From Chloroflexota bacterium (lineage in GTDB: Bacteria; Chloroflexota; Anaerolineae; J036; Brachytrichaceae), in contig JAMCQN010000102.1 in NCBI GenBank assembly GCA_023382055.1, positions 1-44,241 on the forward strand: DNA of 44,241 nt. Reading direction: 5' to 3'. A program made the translations under genes and the position numbers. This document shows, piece by piece, positions 4,450 through 38,100 of this stretch (the first letter of the stretch is position 1; each line of letters begins with the position of its first letter). The notes under the pieces were generated by a model. The model made no database searches and was not told the origin of the DNA. It saw only the letters and a program-made list of their open reading frames with translations.

Positions 4450-4491
4450 CAAACCTGACAGGTGGCTGACGTGCGCCACCTGTCAGGTTTG
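4450..4491 (-). terminator. 17-bp perfect hairpin, likely terminator of the upstream secreted-protein gene
   Basis: A perfect inverted repeat: CAAACCTGACAGGTGGC at 4450-4466, an 8-base loop, and its exact complement at 4475-4491. It lies 7 bases after the stop of the minus-strand gene at 4498-6213 and 16 bases before the leuD start. No clear T-run follows on the minus strand, so it may be a processing or attenuation structure rather than a simple intrinsic terminator. Confidence 0.55.
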
Positions 4492-23112: not shown

Positions 23113-23363
23113 AAGGCTAAGTGAGTCGCCAGAAGGTCCTGACACTGCTCGCAGCCCCGTCTCGGATTCTGTTGGCGAAATTGGTTTCGAGAACCCAGAC
23201 TCCCGGAATCTCGGAGATTCCGGGAGTCTATGCGCGATTATCGACGACCCAATGGGATTCGCCAACAGAATCCGTCTCGGGGCGTTTCCGCCGCGACCGC
23301 GCGCCGAGGACGGGGCGCTGAGCCGGTAAACCGTCAACCTCTTCTGGCGACTCCCTTAGGCTT
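23113..23363. repeat. nested inverted-repeat (MITE-like) element between glycosidase and kinase genes
   Basis: About 250 bp framed by imperfect inverted ends: AAGGCTAAGTGAGTCGCCAG at 23113 onward, matched by its complement ending at 23363 (about 25 bp, three mismatches). Inside lies a second pair: CGGATTCTGTTGGCGAA at 23163-23179 and its exact complement at 23258-23274. A central 33-base palindrome lies at 23197-23229 (16-bp arms, one central base). It has no gene. It fills most of the 392-base divergent gap between the glycosidase start (23064) and the kinase start (23457). The rest of that gap, 23364-23456, shows only the kinase ribosome binding site. Confidence 0.65.
23169..23235 (+). repeat. 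dispersed palindromic repeat, copy A
   Basis: A 67-base segment repeated in inverse orientation at 33035-33101, with 65 of 67 bases identical by my reading. It starts CTGTTGGCGAAATTGG and contains the palindrome around GACTCCCGGAATCTC. It is the core of the larger nested element at 23113-23363. Confidence 0.85.
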
Positions 23364-30766: not shown

Positions 30767-32974
30767 ATGTCTGTGTTTGAGGTCAAAGATCATCACGGCT
30801 CACCCACCTTGTTTATGGATGGGCAACCGGTCTTCACCACTATCTACCTGACGGTCCGCAATTTTCGCAACCCGGACACAGGCTGGCAACCCGACCCGCA
30901 TTTCGAGGAGTTCCGCAATGCGGGTTTTCACTTCTACTCAATCGAACTGCCGACGCGGTTCGATGATGCATACGATGCCGCAACCGGATCATTCAATCCT
31001 GCGGCATTCTCGCGGCTTGACGATCTTAAGCGGTATGTTGCCATCGATCCACAGGCCAGGTTCCTGTTGCGCGTGGGCGTGGAACCGCGCGGCGAGCAAT
31101 CCGCATGGATACGGCAGCATCGCGACCAATGCGAAGTGTTGGAGGAGCGCGCCAAAGGCATCTATCCCACGCCTTCGTATGCCTCGAAGATCTGGCTGCA
31201 TGATGCGGCTGAGTTCATTCGCACGCTGATCCGTTACATCTTTGAGCATGGCCTGTCTGACTGTATCCTGGGCTATCTGATCTGCGGCGGCGACAGTTCC
31301 GAGTGGGTGAAGATCGGCCCGATGGAAGACTGGGCAGGCGACTTTTCGCTTCCGATGCAGCAGGAGTTCAGCCGCTGGCTCAAATCCAGGTACGGTGACG
31401 AGCAGTCGTTGCGGACCGCATGGGATGATCCAACCGTAAGTTTCGACCGACACAATCTGGTACCGTCGCCGCAGGAACAAGCCGAAACGGACCTGTTCCT
31501 GTTCAAAGACCCCCGCAAACGCCGCAAGGCCATCGACCATTTCCAGTGTCTGGCCGATCTGGTAGCCGGTGATATCGACTATTTATGCAGCGTCGCCAAG
31601 GAGGCCTGCGGGCGCGCCCACCTCGCGGGCGCCTTCTATGGCTACGTGCAGGAGATTGTCTGGAACAACGGCTTCTTCGGCCAGCGCCTCGCGGATGCGG
31701 ACGTCGCGCATGCGGCGGGAGCGCGCTCCGGACATGCAGGACTGAAGAAAGTGCTGGCATCGCCGCACATCGATTTTCTCAGCAGCCCTTATTCCTACGG
31801 CTTTCGCGGCGTCGGCGGCGAAGGCAGCTTCATGTCGCCACAGGAGAGCGTGCGCCGCGCCGGCAAACTTTGGATCAGCGAAGAGGATATGCGCACCCAT
31901 CTGTGGCCGACTGGTTCCTATTATGGCCAGACGCATAACACCCGGGAAACCGCCAATGTCCTGAAACGCCAGATGGCGAATCTGATCACACATGGCGCAG
32001 GAGCGTGGTGGTGTGATTGGGGCAAGCCAACCGGCGGGGCTTTTGCCGAGCCTGAATTGATGCAGGTATTCAGCAGCTCGCTAGAGATCGGGCGCGCAGC
32101 GCTTGATCTGCCCGACAGGACATCAGCCTCCGAAGTAGCCGTCGTGATCGATGCCGAGAGTTCATTCTACCGATCCACCTTGAACAACTTCGACATGCCT
32201 TCATGGCGCAACCACGCCTGGGGCATCGTCAGGATGGGCGCGCCGGTCGATGTCATTTTGCTCAGCGATTTACTGGAAGGGCGCGCACGCGACTACAAGT
32301 TCTACTTCTTCGCCAACACCGTCCACTTCTCCGCAGCAGAGCGCGAACTGGTCAAACGCATCCTGCGCCGAGATGGCAAATCTGCATTGTGGGTTTATGC
32401 GCCCGGGTTTGTTGATGAGGACTTGTCTGTCGAACATTGCGCCGACCTCACGGGCATCAGGCTGCGCATGACGCCCAGGCAGTGGGGCGCGCATATCTAC
32501 ATCAGCAACTTCGAGCACCCCATTACGCGCAATCTGCCGACCTCCACATTCTGGGGAACAGATATGAGGCTGGGACCTTTGTTCACAGTCAACGATCCGG
32601 ATGTAACGACGCTGGGAACCGTGGTCATCAATCAAGGCCGGTGCGAGCCGGGATTCGTTATTCGCGCAACGAAGGAGTGGACGAGCGTCTATTCTGCGGC
32701 GCCGAACATACCGGCGGGCGTGCTGCGCGAACTGGCGCGCCACGCAGGGGTGCACATCTACAGCGAATCAGAGGATGTGATGTATGCGGACCGCCACTTT
32801 ATCGCGCTTCACACCGTGCGCGCCGGCGCGAAGACCATACGCCTGCCGCATCAAGCTAGTGTGTGGGAAGCGTACTCCGGGCGGCTGGTCGCAGCGCAGT
32901 GCGAGGAATACATCGATCACATGGAAGCCGGGGCTACGCACCTGTATTACTACGGCCGGCAGCCGCTAACGTAA
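30767..32974 (+). CDS. GH42-like (clan GH-A) glycosidase, paralogue 1
   Basis: A 735-residue putative beta-glycosidase with a barrel and a Rossmann-like trimerisation-type domain. The barrel starts after a short beta-part (FMDGQPVFTT). The likely acid/base Glu is E179 in GGDSSEW and the nucleophile is E372 or E373 in ISEED. Clan GH-A enzymes usually have Asn before the acid/base Glu, and here it is Ser. Domain B (about residues 440-620) with VAVVIDAES and YKFYFFANT resembles GH42 trimerisation. No signal peptide, so it acts inside on imported oligosaccharides. GAGGG lies 6 bases before the ATG. It is a paralogue of 35875-38100. Confidence 0.75.
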   Translation: MSVFEVKDHHGSPTLFMDGQPVFTTIYLTVRNFRNPDTGWQPDPHFEEFRNAGFHFYSIELPTRFDDAYDAATGSFNPAAFSRLDDLKRYVAIDPQARFLLRVGVEPRGEQSAWIRQHRDQCEVLEERAKGIYPTPSYASKIWLHDAAEFIRTLIRYIFEHGLSDCILGYLICGGDSSEWVKIGPMEDWAGDFSLPMQQEFSRWLKSRYGDEQSLRTAWDDPTVSFDRHNLVPSPQEQAETDLFLFKDPRKRRKAIDHFQCLADLVAGDIDYLCSVAKEACGRAHLAGAFYGYVQEIVWNNGFFGQRLADADVAHAAGARSGHAGLKKVLASPHIDFLSSPYSYGFRGVGGEGSFMSPQESVRRAGKLWISEEDMRTHLWPTGSYYGQTHNTRETANVLKRQMANLITHGAGAWWCDWGKPTGGAFAEPELMQVFSSSLEIGRAALDLPDRTSASEVAVVIDAESSFYRSTLNNFDMPSWRNHAWGIVRMGAPVDVILLSDLLEGRARDYKFYFFANTVHFSAAERELVKRILRRDGKSALWVYAPGFVDEDLSVEHCADLTGIRLRMTPRQWGAHIYISNFEHPITRNLPTSTFWGTDMRLGPLFTVNDPDVTTLGTVVINQGRCEPGFVIRATKEWTSVYSAAPNIPAGVLRELARHAGVHIYSESEDVMYADRHFIALHTVRAGAKTIRLPHQASVWEAYSGRLVAAQCEEYIDHMEAGATHLYYYGRQPLT

Positions 32975-33034
32975 ACACCGCTGATATTTGACACGACGAG
33001 TGCAGCGCTGATCAGGTCAAGCGAGTCCAGGATT

Positions 33035-33101
33035 GCGTATAGACTCCCGGAATCTCGGAGATTCCGGGAGTCTGGGTTCTCGTAACCAATTTCGCCAACA
33101 G
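33035..33101 (-). repeat. dispersed palindromic repeat, copy B
   Basis: Inverted copy of 23169-23235, with the 33-base palindrome at 33041-33073. It lies in the 243-base convergent gap between the GH42-like gene and the chaperonin-like gene and could serve as a terminator for both. The outer inverted ends of the larger element around copy A are missing here. The rest of the gap (32975-33034 and 33102-33217) shows nothing I can name. Confidence 0.85.
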
Positions 33102-33217
33102 TCAAGATGAGCCTGGCGGCGCACCGCAAGGCATGAAAACAGCCTGCCTATTTTCATATCAGAATCCGGGACGGGGCTGGGATCAGCAATAAGTAGAAGG
33201 CATTTCGGGCGACTTAC

Positions 33218-34840
33218 TCAGGGTTCCGTCGCCGTTATCGGTTTGCGGTGGCGGACAACGACATCCGTCGTCAGCACCATCGTCGCCACACTCGCCGCAG
33301 TCGCCAGGGCATTTTCGAGCACATTGGCGCTGTCGACGATGCCGGCCTTGCGCATATCCTCCACGCGACCCGTCAGGACGTTCAAACCGTGACCGCGGCC
33401 ATCTCGCCTGGCCCGCGCGATGGTGGCAGATGGCGGCTCGCCTGCGTTGGCAGCGATGGCGCGCATCGGTTCCTCCAGCGCGCGCGCAACCGCGCTGATG
33501 CCTGCGTGCACGTCCGGGTCATCAGACAGGAGCGCCTTGACCGCATCGATACAGTCGAGAAAAGCCGCACCGCCGCCGGCGACCATGCCGGACTCCGTCA
33601 CCGAGTTCATGAAGTGCACGCTGCGCTCGGCGATTTCCTGGCGAAGTTTCTGCTCCGTTTCCGTGCGCGCGCCGACCGACAGCATGGCTGTACCGCCCAT
33701 CAGACGCCCCAGGCGTTTGCGCAATGCGTCAACCTCAGCCTTATCTTTCGTCGCGCCGATTGCCTTGCGCAGCACAGAGATATGGGCGCGCAGCGCTTTA
33801 GCAGAACCTTTACCGGCGACAAGACCGAATTGCAGCGTATCCGCCCACAATCGGCGTGTCTTGCCGATCATGTCCGCGCTAAACAGGGATAGATCCGCCT
33901 CCGTATCGCCGACTAAAGGCGTTCCGCCGGTAATGACCGCAAGATCATCGAAGAAATACTTGCGCTCACTCGATGATGCGGGTGTCTTGACAGGCAGGCA
34001 CTTGAAGGTGCCTTTCTGGTGGTTATGCGCCAGAACGCTGATCACCGAGTCCGACATCCCGTTACAGACGATGCCGATAGCGGTGTGCCCGGCCGACATG
34101 ACTGTACCCACCGCCCTGGCCAGCGCCTCGACATTGCTGATGCGTCCATCGACCAGCATGATCGCTGCATCCTGCAGTTCAGCGCGGCGCATCGCTGTGC
34201 CGCTGAATGCCGAAGATATCCAGCCCGTGCGCCAGAATGCGCCTTCGACATATTCGCGCTCCAGGCTGCGCCCGCTGCTTGACTGAACGTCAACGTATCC
34301 GCTCATGCCGATGATGCTGTAGATTTCACCCAGCATATCCGCCAGTTCATCATCATGGCAATGGGAACGCGCGATCTGGGCCAGGGCTTTTTGCGTCGTC
34401 ACCGGCGTAGCTTGCGCCTGTATCGCCCCGACCGCTGCCGAGGTGGCCTGCCGGATTCCTTCGCGCACGCGCATGGCGTTGGCACCCGCCGCTACAGAAC
34501 GATAAGCATGATGAAGCATCGCCTGGGCCAGCACTGCTGTGGTCGCCGTGCCGTCGCCCACGCGTTCACCGACCTGCCAGACCGCCTGGCGCATGAGCAT
34601 CGCGCCCACGTCGGAGGCATCATCACCGATCTGGATAATGCGGCGCGCCAGCGTACCGGCATCACTGAGCAATTCGGGAGAGCGGTCGCGCGACACACGC
34701 TCCATTCCCACATAGCGCGGAAACGGCCCGATTGTGGGACGCACGACGTTCACAATCAGGTCAATACCACGCAGGAGATCCCTGTGCACTCGCGGTTGGA
34801 ATTCTGTAGATGGGCGTCTCAAGGCAATCGTCTTTCTCAT
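33218..34840 (-). CDS. divergent GroEL-like (Cpn60) protein
   Basis: A 540-residue group I chaperonin homologue. Ordinary GroEL folds proteins with GroES and ATP. The fold is clear: RPTIGPFPRYVGMERVSRD near residue 34, GDGTATTAVLAQ at about 95-106 (GDGTTT in GroEL), VAGGGAAFL at 420-428, and VLTGRVEDMRKAGIVDS near the end. Aligned from memory with E. coli GroEL, D52 and D87 match D60 and D96. The catalytic D398 falls at R406 (IAERSVHFM), so ATP hydrolysis may be lost or altered. The methionine-glycine tail is absent (ends HRKPITATEP), and there is no groES nearby. It may assist a specific client or be a structural paralogue. It lies opposite the glycan operon, just after the SDR gene. Confidence 0.8.
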   Translation of the reverse strand: MRKTIALRRPSTEFQPRVHRDLLRGIDLIVNVVRPTIGPFPRYVGMERVSRDRSPELLSDAGTLARRIIQIGDDASDVGAMLMRQAVWQVGERVGDGTATTAVLAQAMLHHAYRSVAAGANAMRVREGIRQATSAAVGAIQAQATPVTTQKALAQIARSHCHDDELADMLGEIYSIIGMSGYVDVQSSSGRSLEREYVEGAFWRTGWISSAFSGTAMRRAELQDAAIMLVDGRISNVEALARAVGTVMSAGHTAIGIVCNGMSDSVISVLAHNHQKGTFKCLPVKTPASSSERKYFFDDLAVITGGTPLVGDTEADLSLFSADMIGKTRRLWADTLQFGLVAGKGSAKALRAHISVLRKAIGATKDKAEVDALRKRLGRLMGGTAMLSVGARTETEQKLRQEIAERSVHFMNSVTESGMVAGGGAAFLDCIDAVKALLSDDPDVHAGISAVARALEEPMRAIAANAGEPPSATIARARRDGRGHGLNVLTGRVEDMRKAGIVDSANVLENALATAASVATMVLTTDVVVRHRKPITATEP

Positions 34841-35874: not shown

Positions 35875-38100
35875 ATGCAAGCATGTATTAAACCCCATAA
35901 TGGTGCACCGACCCTGTTTCTTGATAACCGCCCGGTTTTCGGCGGCCACCAGTGGCTATCGAACCACCCGGGACCCAACGGCTTCCCCGGCGCGGATGCC
36001 GTGCGCCTGTTCGGGCAGGCCGGCGTTCACATTAACGCCCTGGCCGTCGCGGCAGCGTCCGATTGGTGCGGCCACTGGTGCGGGCCTCGCCCCGGCATGG
36101 CCGGAGACTACGATTTCACAATGGTGGAGCCCCAGTTACGCGCCATCCTCAAGGAAGATCGCGACGCGCTATTCCACATGCGCATTTACTTCGAAACCGC
36201 CGAATGGTGGAATCAGTTGCATCCCGAAGAATGCGAACTCGCATCGGATGGCCGGCGGTTAAACCAGTCCTATGCATCGGAGGTATGGCGTGAGGACGTC
36301 CGGAAATTCCTTACGGCATACGTTGATCATCTGAAGAAGATCGGCCTGGCCGACCGCGTGATTGCGTATCAGGTACAGGCTGGCATCTGCGGCGAGTGGA
36401 TCAAAAACACCACATCCATGCAGCCTGTCACCGGGGATTACAGCGAACCGATGCGGCGGCACTTTCGCAGTTGGCTGCGTGTGCGCTATAAAGTTGACGC
36501 TGCGCTGCAACAAGCCTGGGCTGACGACAGCGTGACGCTGGAGTCAGCGGAAGTCCCATCTGCCGACGCGCAGTTGAACGGCACCCACGGGTTACTGCGC
36601 GATCCGCGCCGCGAGCAACCGGTAATCGATTACTATCATTGCCTCGCGGAGTTGACCGCAGAGGACCTGATCGGTTTCTGCCAGGTTGTGAAGGACTTGA
36701 CGGATGGCAAGGCTTTGGCCGGCGCATTCTACGGCTACATTATGGATCTGGCCTGGAACGACAATTTCTTCGGCGCCGACACCAGCGGCGATTACTCTAC
36801 ACTGCAGCGCAGCGGTCATCTCGGATTGCGCAAGGTATTGGAATCGCCGGCGGTCGATTACATCGTCAGTCCCTACGGCTACGCATTCCGCGGCCTGGGC
36901 GGCGACGGACTGCCGATGCCCCCGACCGAATCCGTGCGTCTGCATAACAAGCTCTACATTCTGGAGGAAGACTCGCACCTGCACAACGAGATGGACCCGC
37001 AGGGACGCAACTTCAATCGCAAGCACACCATTGCGATCAACCAACGTGAGTTTAACCAGACCATCACGCACGGACTGGGCATCTGGTGGTTTGCCGACTA
37101 CCCGGCAGGCAGTTACGCGCGCCAGAATCCCAGCTTCCAGCCCTGGCTTGAGAAGTTCCAGAAGTTGGGGACATGGGCGATGCAACTGGATCGCTCGCCG
37201 CAGTCGGAAGTGGCCGTCCTGGTAGACGACGAAAGCTTCATGTATGAGTCCGACCGCAACAATATCGACCTGCCATTGATATTTCGCCAGCGCGTCACGT
37301 CACTCGCACGGTTCGGCGCGCCGCATGATGTTTACCTCCTGAATGACCTGCTCGACGGCAAACTGCCTGAATATAAGCTCTACATCTTCTTGAACCCGTT
37401 TCACCTGAACGCCGCGCGCCGTGCAGCGCTCAACCAGCAGGTGAAACGCGATGGGAAAACGGCTGTGTGGCTCTACGCGGTGGGCTATCTGAAGGATGAG
37501 CCTGCGCTGGCGCATATGACCGAATTGACAGGTTTTCGATTCGGCAAATGGGATCAGCCCTGGGGGCCGTTTATGCATGTGACGGACTTCGCACATCCCA
37601 TCACAAAAGACGTTCCGCAGGACCTGTTCTGGGGCGCTACAGCTCCGCTCGCGCCGCTCTTCCATCTCGAAGACCCCGAGGCAATCGAGCTTGGTCAAGT
37701 CGTCTACAACCTGGGACGCTGTCAGCCGGGACTGGGCATCAAGACGCTCCCTGCCAGCGAGGGTTTGACCGGCAACTGGAATTCGATTTACTGCGCCACG
37801 CCCGATATTCCCGCCCCGTTGTTGCGTGGCATTGCCCGCTTCGCCGGCGTGCATCTCTACAGCAACGCCGGGGATGTGCTACACGCGACCCTGGATTTGC
37901 TGGGCGTACACACCGTGTCCGGTGGAGAGCGCGATTTCAGGCTGCCGCGCCGGGTAGAGGTCGTAAACGACCTCTACGCCGACAAGCTGATCGCGCGCGA
38001 TGTCGATTGCTTCCATGTCAATCTGCAACCGGCATCCACCAGCCTGTTCTACACGGGACAAAGAAGTCTTCTCGCCGAATTAACTCCAACTTTATCGTGA
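35875..38100 (+). CDS. GH42-like (clan GH-A) glycosidase, paralogue 2
   Basis: A 741-residue paralogue of the protein at 30767-32974, sharing LAGAFYGY, RSGH-GLRKVL, SPYGYAFRG and EED segments and the same length. The predicted acid/base is E174 in AGICGEW, preceded by Gly rather than Asn. The nucleophile is E364 or E365 in LEEDSH. The C-terminal half carries the trimerisation-like domain (AVLVDDESF) and a final beta-domain. There is no signal peptide. The ATG at 35875 has no clear Shine-Dalgarno, but it aligns with the start of the paralogue. It leads into the enolase-superfamily gene with 12 bases between. Two such enzymes suggest two linkages in one substrate. Confidence 0.75.
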   Translation: MQACIKPHNGAPTLFLDNRPVFGGHQWLSNHPGPNGFPGADAVRLFGQAGVHINALAVAAASDWCGHWCGPRPGMAGDYDFTMVEPQLRAILKEDRDALFHMRIYFETAEWWNQLHPEECELASDGRRLNQSYASEVWREDVRKFLTAYVDHLKKIGLADRVIAYQVQAGICGEWIKNTTSMQPVTGDYSEPMRRHFRSWLRVRYKVDAALQQAWADDSVTLESAEVPSADAQLNGTHGLLRDPRREQPVIDYYHCLAELTAEDLIGFCQVVKDLTDGKALAGAFYGYIMDLAWNDNFFGADTSGDYSTLQRSGHLGLRKVLESPAVDYIVSPYGYAFRGLGGDGLPMPPTESVRLHNKLYILEEDSHLHNEMDPQGRNFNRKHTIAINQREFNQTITHGLGIWWFADYPAGSYARQNPSFQPWLEKFQKLGTWAMQLDRSPQSEVAVLVDDESFMYESDRNNIDLPLIFRQRVTSLARFGAPHDVYLLNDLLDGKLPEYKLYIFLNPFHLNAARRAALNQQVKRDGKTAVWLYAVGYLKDEPALAHMTELTGFRFGKWDQPWGPFMHVTDFAHPITKDVPQDLFWGATAPLAPLFHLEDPEAIELGQVVYNLGRCQPGLGIKTLPASEGLTGNWNSIYCATPDIPAPLLRGIARFAGVHLYSNAGDVLHATLDLLGVHTVSGGERDFRLPRRVEVVNDLYADKLIARDVDCFHVNLQPASTSLFYTGQRSLLAELTPTLS

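Follow-up and report, generated by a model that had tools for sequence, protein, structure and literature searches.

REPINs are described as inverted doublets of REP sequences that form hairpins and are linked to RAYT genes (PMC3116915), and RAYT genes that are flanked by REPs are known as REPtrons (PMC6006769). For subclass 2.1 of the Y1 transposases the motifs given are NH[YF]H, FQ and Y[IV]HLNP, and that survey reports no REP-like sequences for this subclass (PMC6006769). The TIRYT repeats are described as lacking a GTAG tag; some of them are self-complementary or doubly palindromic, and in some genomes they make up families, with TIRYTs and TIRtrons coming mainly from other phyla and GGGGWSAS given as a shared motif (PMC3733652).

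The window analysed here is a stretch of 44,241 nucleotides from contig JAMCQN010000102.1 of a Chloroflexota MAG (3,876,400 bases in 207 contigs, 82.7% complete). It contains two copies, A and B, of a palindromic repeat, which were compared with the corresponding sites in genomes of the same genus (G002, G003 and G004). The features are as follows.

23117-23359, plus strand: copy A, a complete composite of 243 bp, missing at the orthologous site of G004
23117-23135, plus strand: left terminal inverted repeat of copy A, 18/19 against the right one
23154-23179, plus strand: left inner arm of copy A, 88% complementary to 23258-23283
23197-23229, no strand assigned: core hairpin of copy A, between the inner arms, identical to the core of copy B
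23258-23283, minus strand: right inner arm of copy A, pairing with 23154-23179
23341-23359, minus strand: right terminal inverted repeat of copy A, 18/19 against the left one
33025-33221, minus strand: copy B, left-truncated element with right outer arm, missing at the orthologous site of G002 and G003
33041-33073, no strand assigned: core hairpin of copy B, 15-bp stem and 3-nt loop
33102-33160, minus strand: 59-bp module within the outer arm of copy B, also in L007, L013, L015, L184 and L194
33161-33221, minus strand: outer arm and end of copy B, the end overlapping the stop codon (33218-33220) of a chaperonin-like ORF

Positions 33035-33101, read on the minus strand, are identical to 23169-23235 at 64 of 67 positions, and the best other match of this 67-mer in the window, leaving aside the overlap of the palindrome with itself, is 34/67. 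The original prediction had the copies matching in reverse at 65 positions; the orientation is as it stated and the recount gives 64. In all, the inverted repeat covers 77 nt, at 91% identity (70/77). It had also been claimed that the outer ends are absent from copy B, which is true for one side only: the left side is truncated past about 33025, while the right outer arm is present at 33161-33221 and merely displaced, the 59-bp module splitting it from the inner arm just as five other copies are interrupted at the same place. The ends of the composite are of the type CTAAG..AGTCGCCAGAAG. Copy A sits between divergent genes and copy B between convergent genes.

The 33-bp core is a palindrome with a 15-bp stem and a 3-nt loop and is identical in A and B; being palindromic, the two cores also form a direct repeat. 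As DNA, the two cores form hairpins of -16.6 kcal/mol (z-scores -6.2 and -8.0), and the larger segment 23164-23273 of copy A gives a branched fold at -39 kcal/mol (z -9.8). No match in the window reached the gathering score of any Rfam family. In an alignment of 24 distinct 33-nt hairpins, taken from this genome and its relatives, 99.2% of the cells were paired, and in six of the 15 pairs a total of 16 cells had changed on both sides; neither value was reached in any of 500 shuffles. Such paired changes could also be produced by gene conversion between the arms. We considered whether the arms might be separately maintained as half-palindromes and rejected this, as the symmetry is present, yet the same alignment has no covariation within them. 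An additional perfect hairpin in the window, of 17 bp with an 8-nt loop (4450-4491), is intergenic and lies outside this repeat family.

A genome-wide count, proposed along with the original prediction, gave 75 copies among the genome stretches examined, rather than a repeat limited to this locus. The 33-mer itself, with at most three mismatches, was found at 58 places per strand, and its reversed control at none. The loop is of 3 nt in 61 of the 75 copies and of 19-21 nt, holding a small hairpin, in the other 14, and the arm AGACTCCCGGAATCT is present in 58. The core forms part of larger units in this genome, the full form of which is the 243-bp composite with terminal inverted repeats. If a copy is called flanked when it matches the feet GAGAACCC and ATGCGCGA at 11 or more of their 16 bases, 45 copies are flanked, both window copies among them, and 30 are bare. 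By a rough ORF heuristic, 31/75 copies lie inside an ORF of at least 80 aa, compared with 7222 of 8000 random positions. GT[AG]G was found within 6 nt of none of the 75 copies on either strand, so the repeat is not filed as a canonical GTAG REP and the usual guide is missing; in the scan for this tag 36 of the 85 'hairpins' from RAYT loci were runs of N and are to be disregarded.

The feet are duplicated beside the hairpin on the right in eight copies, mostly as units of 11-18 nt, and on the left in four; in L019 the duplicated unit on the right is a whole second hairpin. Partial foot duplications adjoining the core, with up to four units, are seen in L004, L010, L019, L024, L025, L028, L049 and L184. 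In L182 and L057 two further cores with short feet sit within tandem arrays of the CCAATCT type. Cores of the repeat also occur inside or beside hairpins of another family, CTCCGAGTTCT (L027 1440-1620, L186 1380-1640 and L299 2300-2480).

At the site of copy B, the two convergent genes of the window also occur in G003 and G002, but without the element, with just unrelated short hairpins there; the 735-aa protein is 80% identical over the part compared and the chaperonin is 75% and 65% identical. At the site of copy A both divergent genes are present in G004 (70% and 79% identical); in place of the complete element of 243 bp, G004 has just TTAGA between CCCAAGG and CTTACTATAACGCAGAT. As the element is missing from both orthologous sites in relatives of the same genus, A and B are lineage-specific insertions. 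The earlier description of the core as the mobile or conserved unit agrees with the 75 copies and the empty sites, from which we infer its mobility. Within this dispersed and lineage-specific repeat family, copy B is an ordinary copy.

We then looked at the RAYT genes themselves. In G004 a Y1_Tnp gene has CCCGGAAT hairpins, those of the family in the window, on both sides, though its reading frame is broken; the 82.7% complete genome from which the window comes yielded no RAYT with CCCGGAAT hairpins. A Y1_Tnp gene of that genome (C194:54954-55511) carries hairpins of the other family, CTCCGAGTTCT, on both sides. Its protein scores 76.7 bits (E 1.7e-21) against NF047646, the REP-associated tyrosine transposase, for which the cut-off is 80, and 32.4 bits against Y1_Tnp. 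Up to an E value of 1 the sole PDB match is 4er8, TnpArep (E 1.6e-5), and the protein has matches at E 1e-10 or better in 69 of 199 sampled genomes of the class. The motifs are NHYH, FQ and YIHRNP, which are close to those of subclass 2.1; on motifs, membership of that subclass may serve as a lead only. A second RAYT-like gene in the same genome (G000:C29; L298 1926-2401) has four AAACCTCACAGGTCT hairpins on one side at a spacing of 145-149 bp. G003 and G001 carry the CCCGGAAT-family hairpins, yet none of them lies near their best Y1_Tnp genes.

Several details of hairpin layout may be recorded here. In L310 (1175-1207; G025:C172:2374-2406) a 33-nt AGACTTCCGAAGTCT hairpin lies within the RAYT gene, just ahead of the region of the HUH motif. 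At three RAYT loci of the genus (L061 1898-1949, L248 893-958 and L077 815-849) the upstream hairpin contains a second hairpin nested in its long loop, and the one downstream has a loop of 3 nt. A 51-bp variant of the repeat in the genome of the window has the same layout.

Across the class, hairpins of the same family were found on both sides of 14 of 37 complete RAYT loci and of none of 578 control genes, counting perfect stems of at least 12 bp with loops of 3-25 nt within 450 bp of the gene; the controls come from 800 kb of one genus, that of the window, while the RAYT loci span the class, and the 30 loci taken from the 69/199 genomes are best hits and not a random sample, so this contrast is indicative only. 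The remaining RAYT loci have different hairpins on both sides (1), hairpins on one side (14) or none (8), compared with any hairpins on both sides of two controls and on one side of 87. Forty-three loci had been entered, L249 being without a match and L248, L262, L273, L276 and L289 lying at contig edges. Ten of 22 Y1 loci were left out (L250, L251, L252, L254, L255, L256, L260, L263, L264 and L266), none of them with same-family hairpins on both sides; L266 and L273 are the same gene, as are L061 and L268. At the RAYT loci the hairpins most often have a stem of 15 bp and a loop of 3 nt. Thirty distinct arms from these loci are near-palindromic, with a mean of 4.9 of 7 pairs against 1.81 in shuffled arms. 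The GACTTCCGAAGTCT family, which lies in or by the RAYT locus in six genomes, has 24, 16, 13, 13, 6 and 1 copies in G025, G069, G074, G107, G039 and G206, compared with 0-10 copies in the other 28 genomes searched; the loop is of 3 nt in every listed match, where 3-8 were allowed.

Like the REPINs and REPtrons as described in PMC3116915, PMC6006769 and PMC8266576, the repeat is a high-copy, mostly intergenic palindrome. Its two inverted palindromic halves give one hairpin, and a doublet, high copy number and extragenic position, by which REPINs are recognised in those accounts, are all found here. Copies of the same family flank a RAYT gene in relatives, as in a REPtron, although the gene in G004 is frameshifted, and there are several families in a genome, each with its own transposase. 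Unlike the REPINs of those accounts, the copies have no GT[AG]G tag, the stem is a perfect 15 bp with a 3-bp spacer, the core is nested in a composite with terminal inverted repeats and the cognate RAYT was not found in the same genome. The combination of a Y1 transposase with inverted repeats other than GTAG on both sides recalls the TIRYT genes and TIRtrons, although the hairpins here are compact 33-mers, unlike the TIRYT repeats described (PMC3733652). The TIRYT repeats are a closer match than the canonical GTAG REPs. In BIMEs, as described in PMC6006769 and PMC2817692, a palindromic core is likewise combined with flanking modules that can be exchanged, and tandem or partial copies occur, but here the modules are unrelated to theirs in sequence and GTAG REP units are absent.

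We consider it likely that A and B belong to a dispersed, non-autonomous, REPIN-like family, probably spread by a RAYT. The hairpin, the copy number, the paired changes in the stem, the empty sites and the class-wide association of hairpins with RAYT genes all speak for this, as do the hairpins around the Y1_Tnp genes of G004 and of this genome, the NF047646 and TnpArep matches of the latter and the copy numbers of the GACTTCCGAAGTCT family. Against it, this genome yielded no RAYT with CCCGGAAT hairpins and the one in G004 is frameshifted, some RAYT loci have no such hairpin or have it on one side only, the best Y1_Tnp genes of G003 and G001 have none of the hairpins nearby, the GT[AG]G guide is missing, the NF047646 score is just below the cut-off and the 243-bp unit resembles a MITE from a different type of transposon. 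The core is made of two inverted 15-bp near-palindromes, 3 bp apart, that form one 15-bp hairpin in single-stranded DNA. An HUH/Y1 transposase of the RAYT (TnpA-REP) type would recognise this hairpin on the single strand, cut near its foot and transfer it to new, mostly intergenic sites. A RAYT would move the family either in cis or in trans, the composite and the short forms presumably travelling by the same route, and the duplicated feet may have arisen through slippage or through repeated cutting at the base of the hairpin.

MITEs are short non-coding elements with terminal inverted repeats. It could be that the 243-bp element is a MITE of another transposon type that moves by its own terminal inverted repeats, a RAYT-type hairpin having been inserted into it once and carried along. 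Copy A was gained as a whole, with terminal inverted repeats identical at 18 of 19 positions and an empty site in G004, the feet are common to the 45 flanked copies, and the outer arms mostly adjoin a copy of the core (12 of 15 places, as read off the coordinates). Copy A is, however, the only copy for which both terminal inverted repeats and gain as a unit were found. A recognisable terminal end lies within 250 nt of 9 of the 75 copies, which is above the 1 of 150 shuffled flanks but leaves most copies without one, and many have short feet only or none. No target-site duplication is obvious at copy A, though the G004 junction differs by a few bases, and no autonomous partner is known. On balance we regard a MITE origin as rather unlikely.

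The hairpins might instead be functional terminators or hairpins of mRNA 3′ ends, conserved for that role. Hairpins that share the CTCCCGGAAT tip are present in relatives too, several of them 3-16 bp past stop codons and several between convergent genes, which is also the setting of copy B. Copy A on the other hand lies between divergent genes, there is no T-tract, and neither core is in the list from the terminator scan. Conservation for such a role also sits poorly with the empty A and B sites in relatives, and 75 near-identical copies with long common flanks would not be expected of terminators. We regard this explanation as very improbable.

The original prediction had taken A and B as a functional pair around the transporter operon, between which recombination could invert about 10 kb. 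Inverted repeats of 77 nt at 91% identity and 9.8 kb apart would suit an invertible switch. The sites are however not dedicated ones, the 75 copies being spread over many contigs, and the palindromic core would permit deletion as well as inversion. Apart from some missing or extra genes, the element-free G002 is collinear with the window over 10011-43384, to either side of A and B, and since gene order and operon orientation are the same there, the 10-kb inversion is unsupported. Copy number and synteny make the switch very improbable, and the dispersed-repeat reading takes its place; on present evidence the link of the repeat to the transporter operon is incidental. The same comparison with G002 shows, by cross-hits at 35-37% identity, that two large ORFs of the window (30767-32974 and 35875-38100) are paralogues; the former has no family match in Pfam or NCBIfam and the latter none in NCBIfam.

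A DNA-uptake-type word present as inverted pairs is rejected as equally improbable, since the CTCCCGGAAT 10-mer, though enriched in this genome (71 and 75 occurrences against 3 and 1 in the reversed control), is paired at a fixed spacing in hairpins in nearly all the occurrences listed there, where long common flanks are also found. The combination CTCCCGGAAT..ATTCCGGGAG has matches in at least 77 stretches across genome contigs, many of them in unrelated phyla, so its occurrence outside Anaerolineae is at least partly coincidence. The 63 places of a shorter, different palindrome of the CCCGGAATAGGGATTCCGGG type in G192, of the same class, were considered and taken as unrelated. These palindromes (L087, L094, L097 and others) represent a different high-copy repeat, several lying very near contig ends.

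Returning to the REPIN-like reading, the repeat is most likely a RAYT-linked, REPIN-like variant without GT[AG]G that sits inside a MITE-like composite bounded by terminal inverted repeats. A wider proposal, which we offer tentatively and with some doubt, is that Anaerolineae harbour a distinct and undescribed class of REP system. Every RAYT lineage would have a 33-nt double palindrome of its own (15-bp stem, 3-nt loop, an outer A and an inner T in each arm) that would be recognised without GT[AG]G; one such hairpin may have been captured in the 243-bp composite and spread by it in a genome possibly without a transposase of its own.

The findings point to RAYT-linked hairpins across the class Anaerolineae, repeats of a kind on which no paper for this class was found in the literature library searched. 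By their motifs the RAYT proteins here resemble subclass 2.1, the one for which the survey reports no REP-like sequences (PMC6006769). The sequence of the hairpin is specific to each genome but the build of 15 + 3 + 15 is often the same, and the set therefore provides a natural experiment for asking how shape, in place of the usual GTAG guide, might be recognised by a single-strand transposase.
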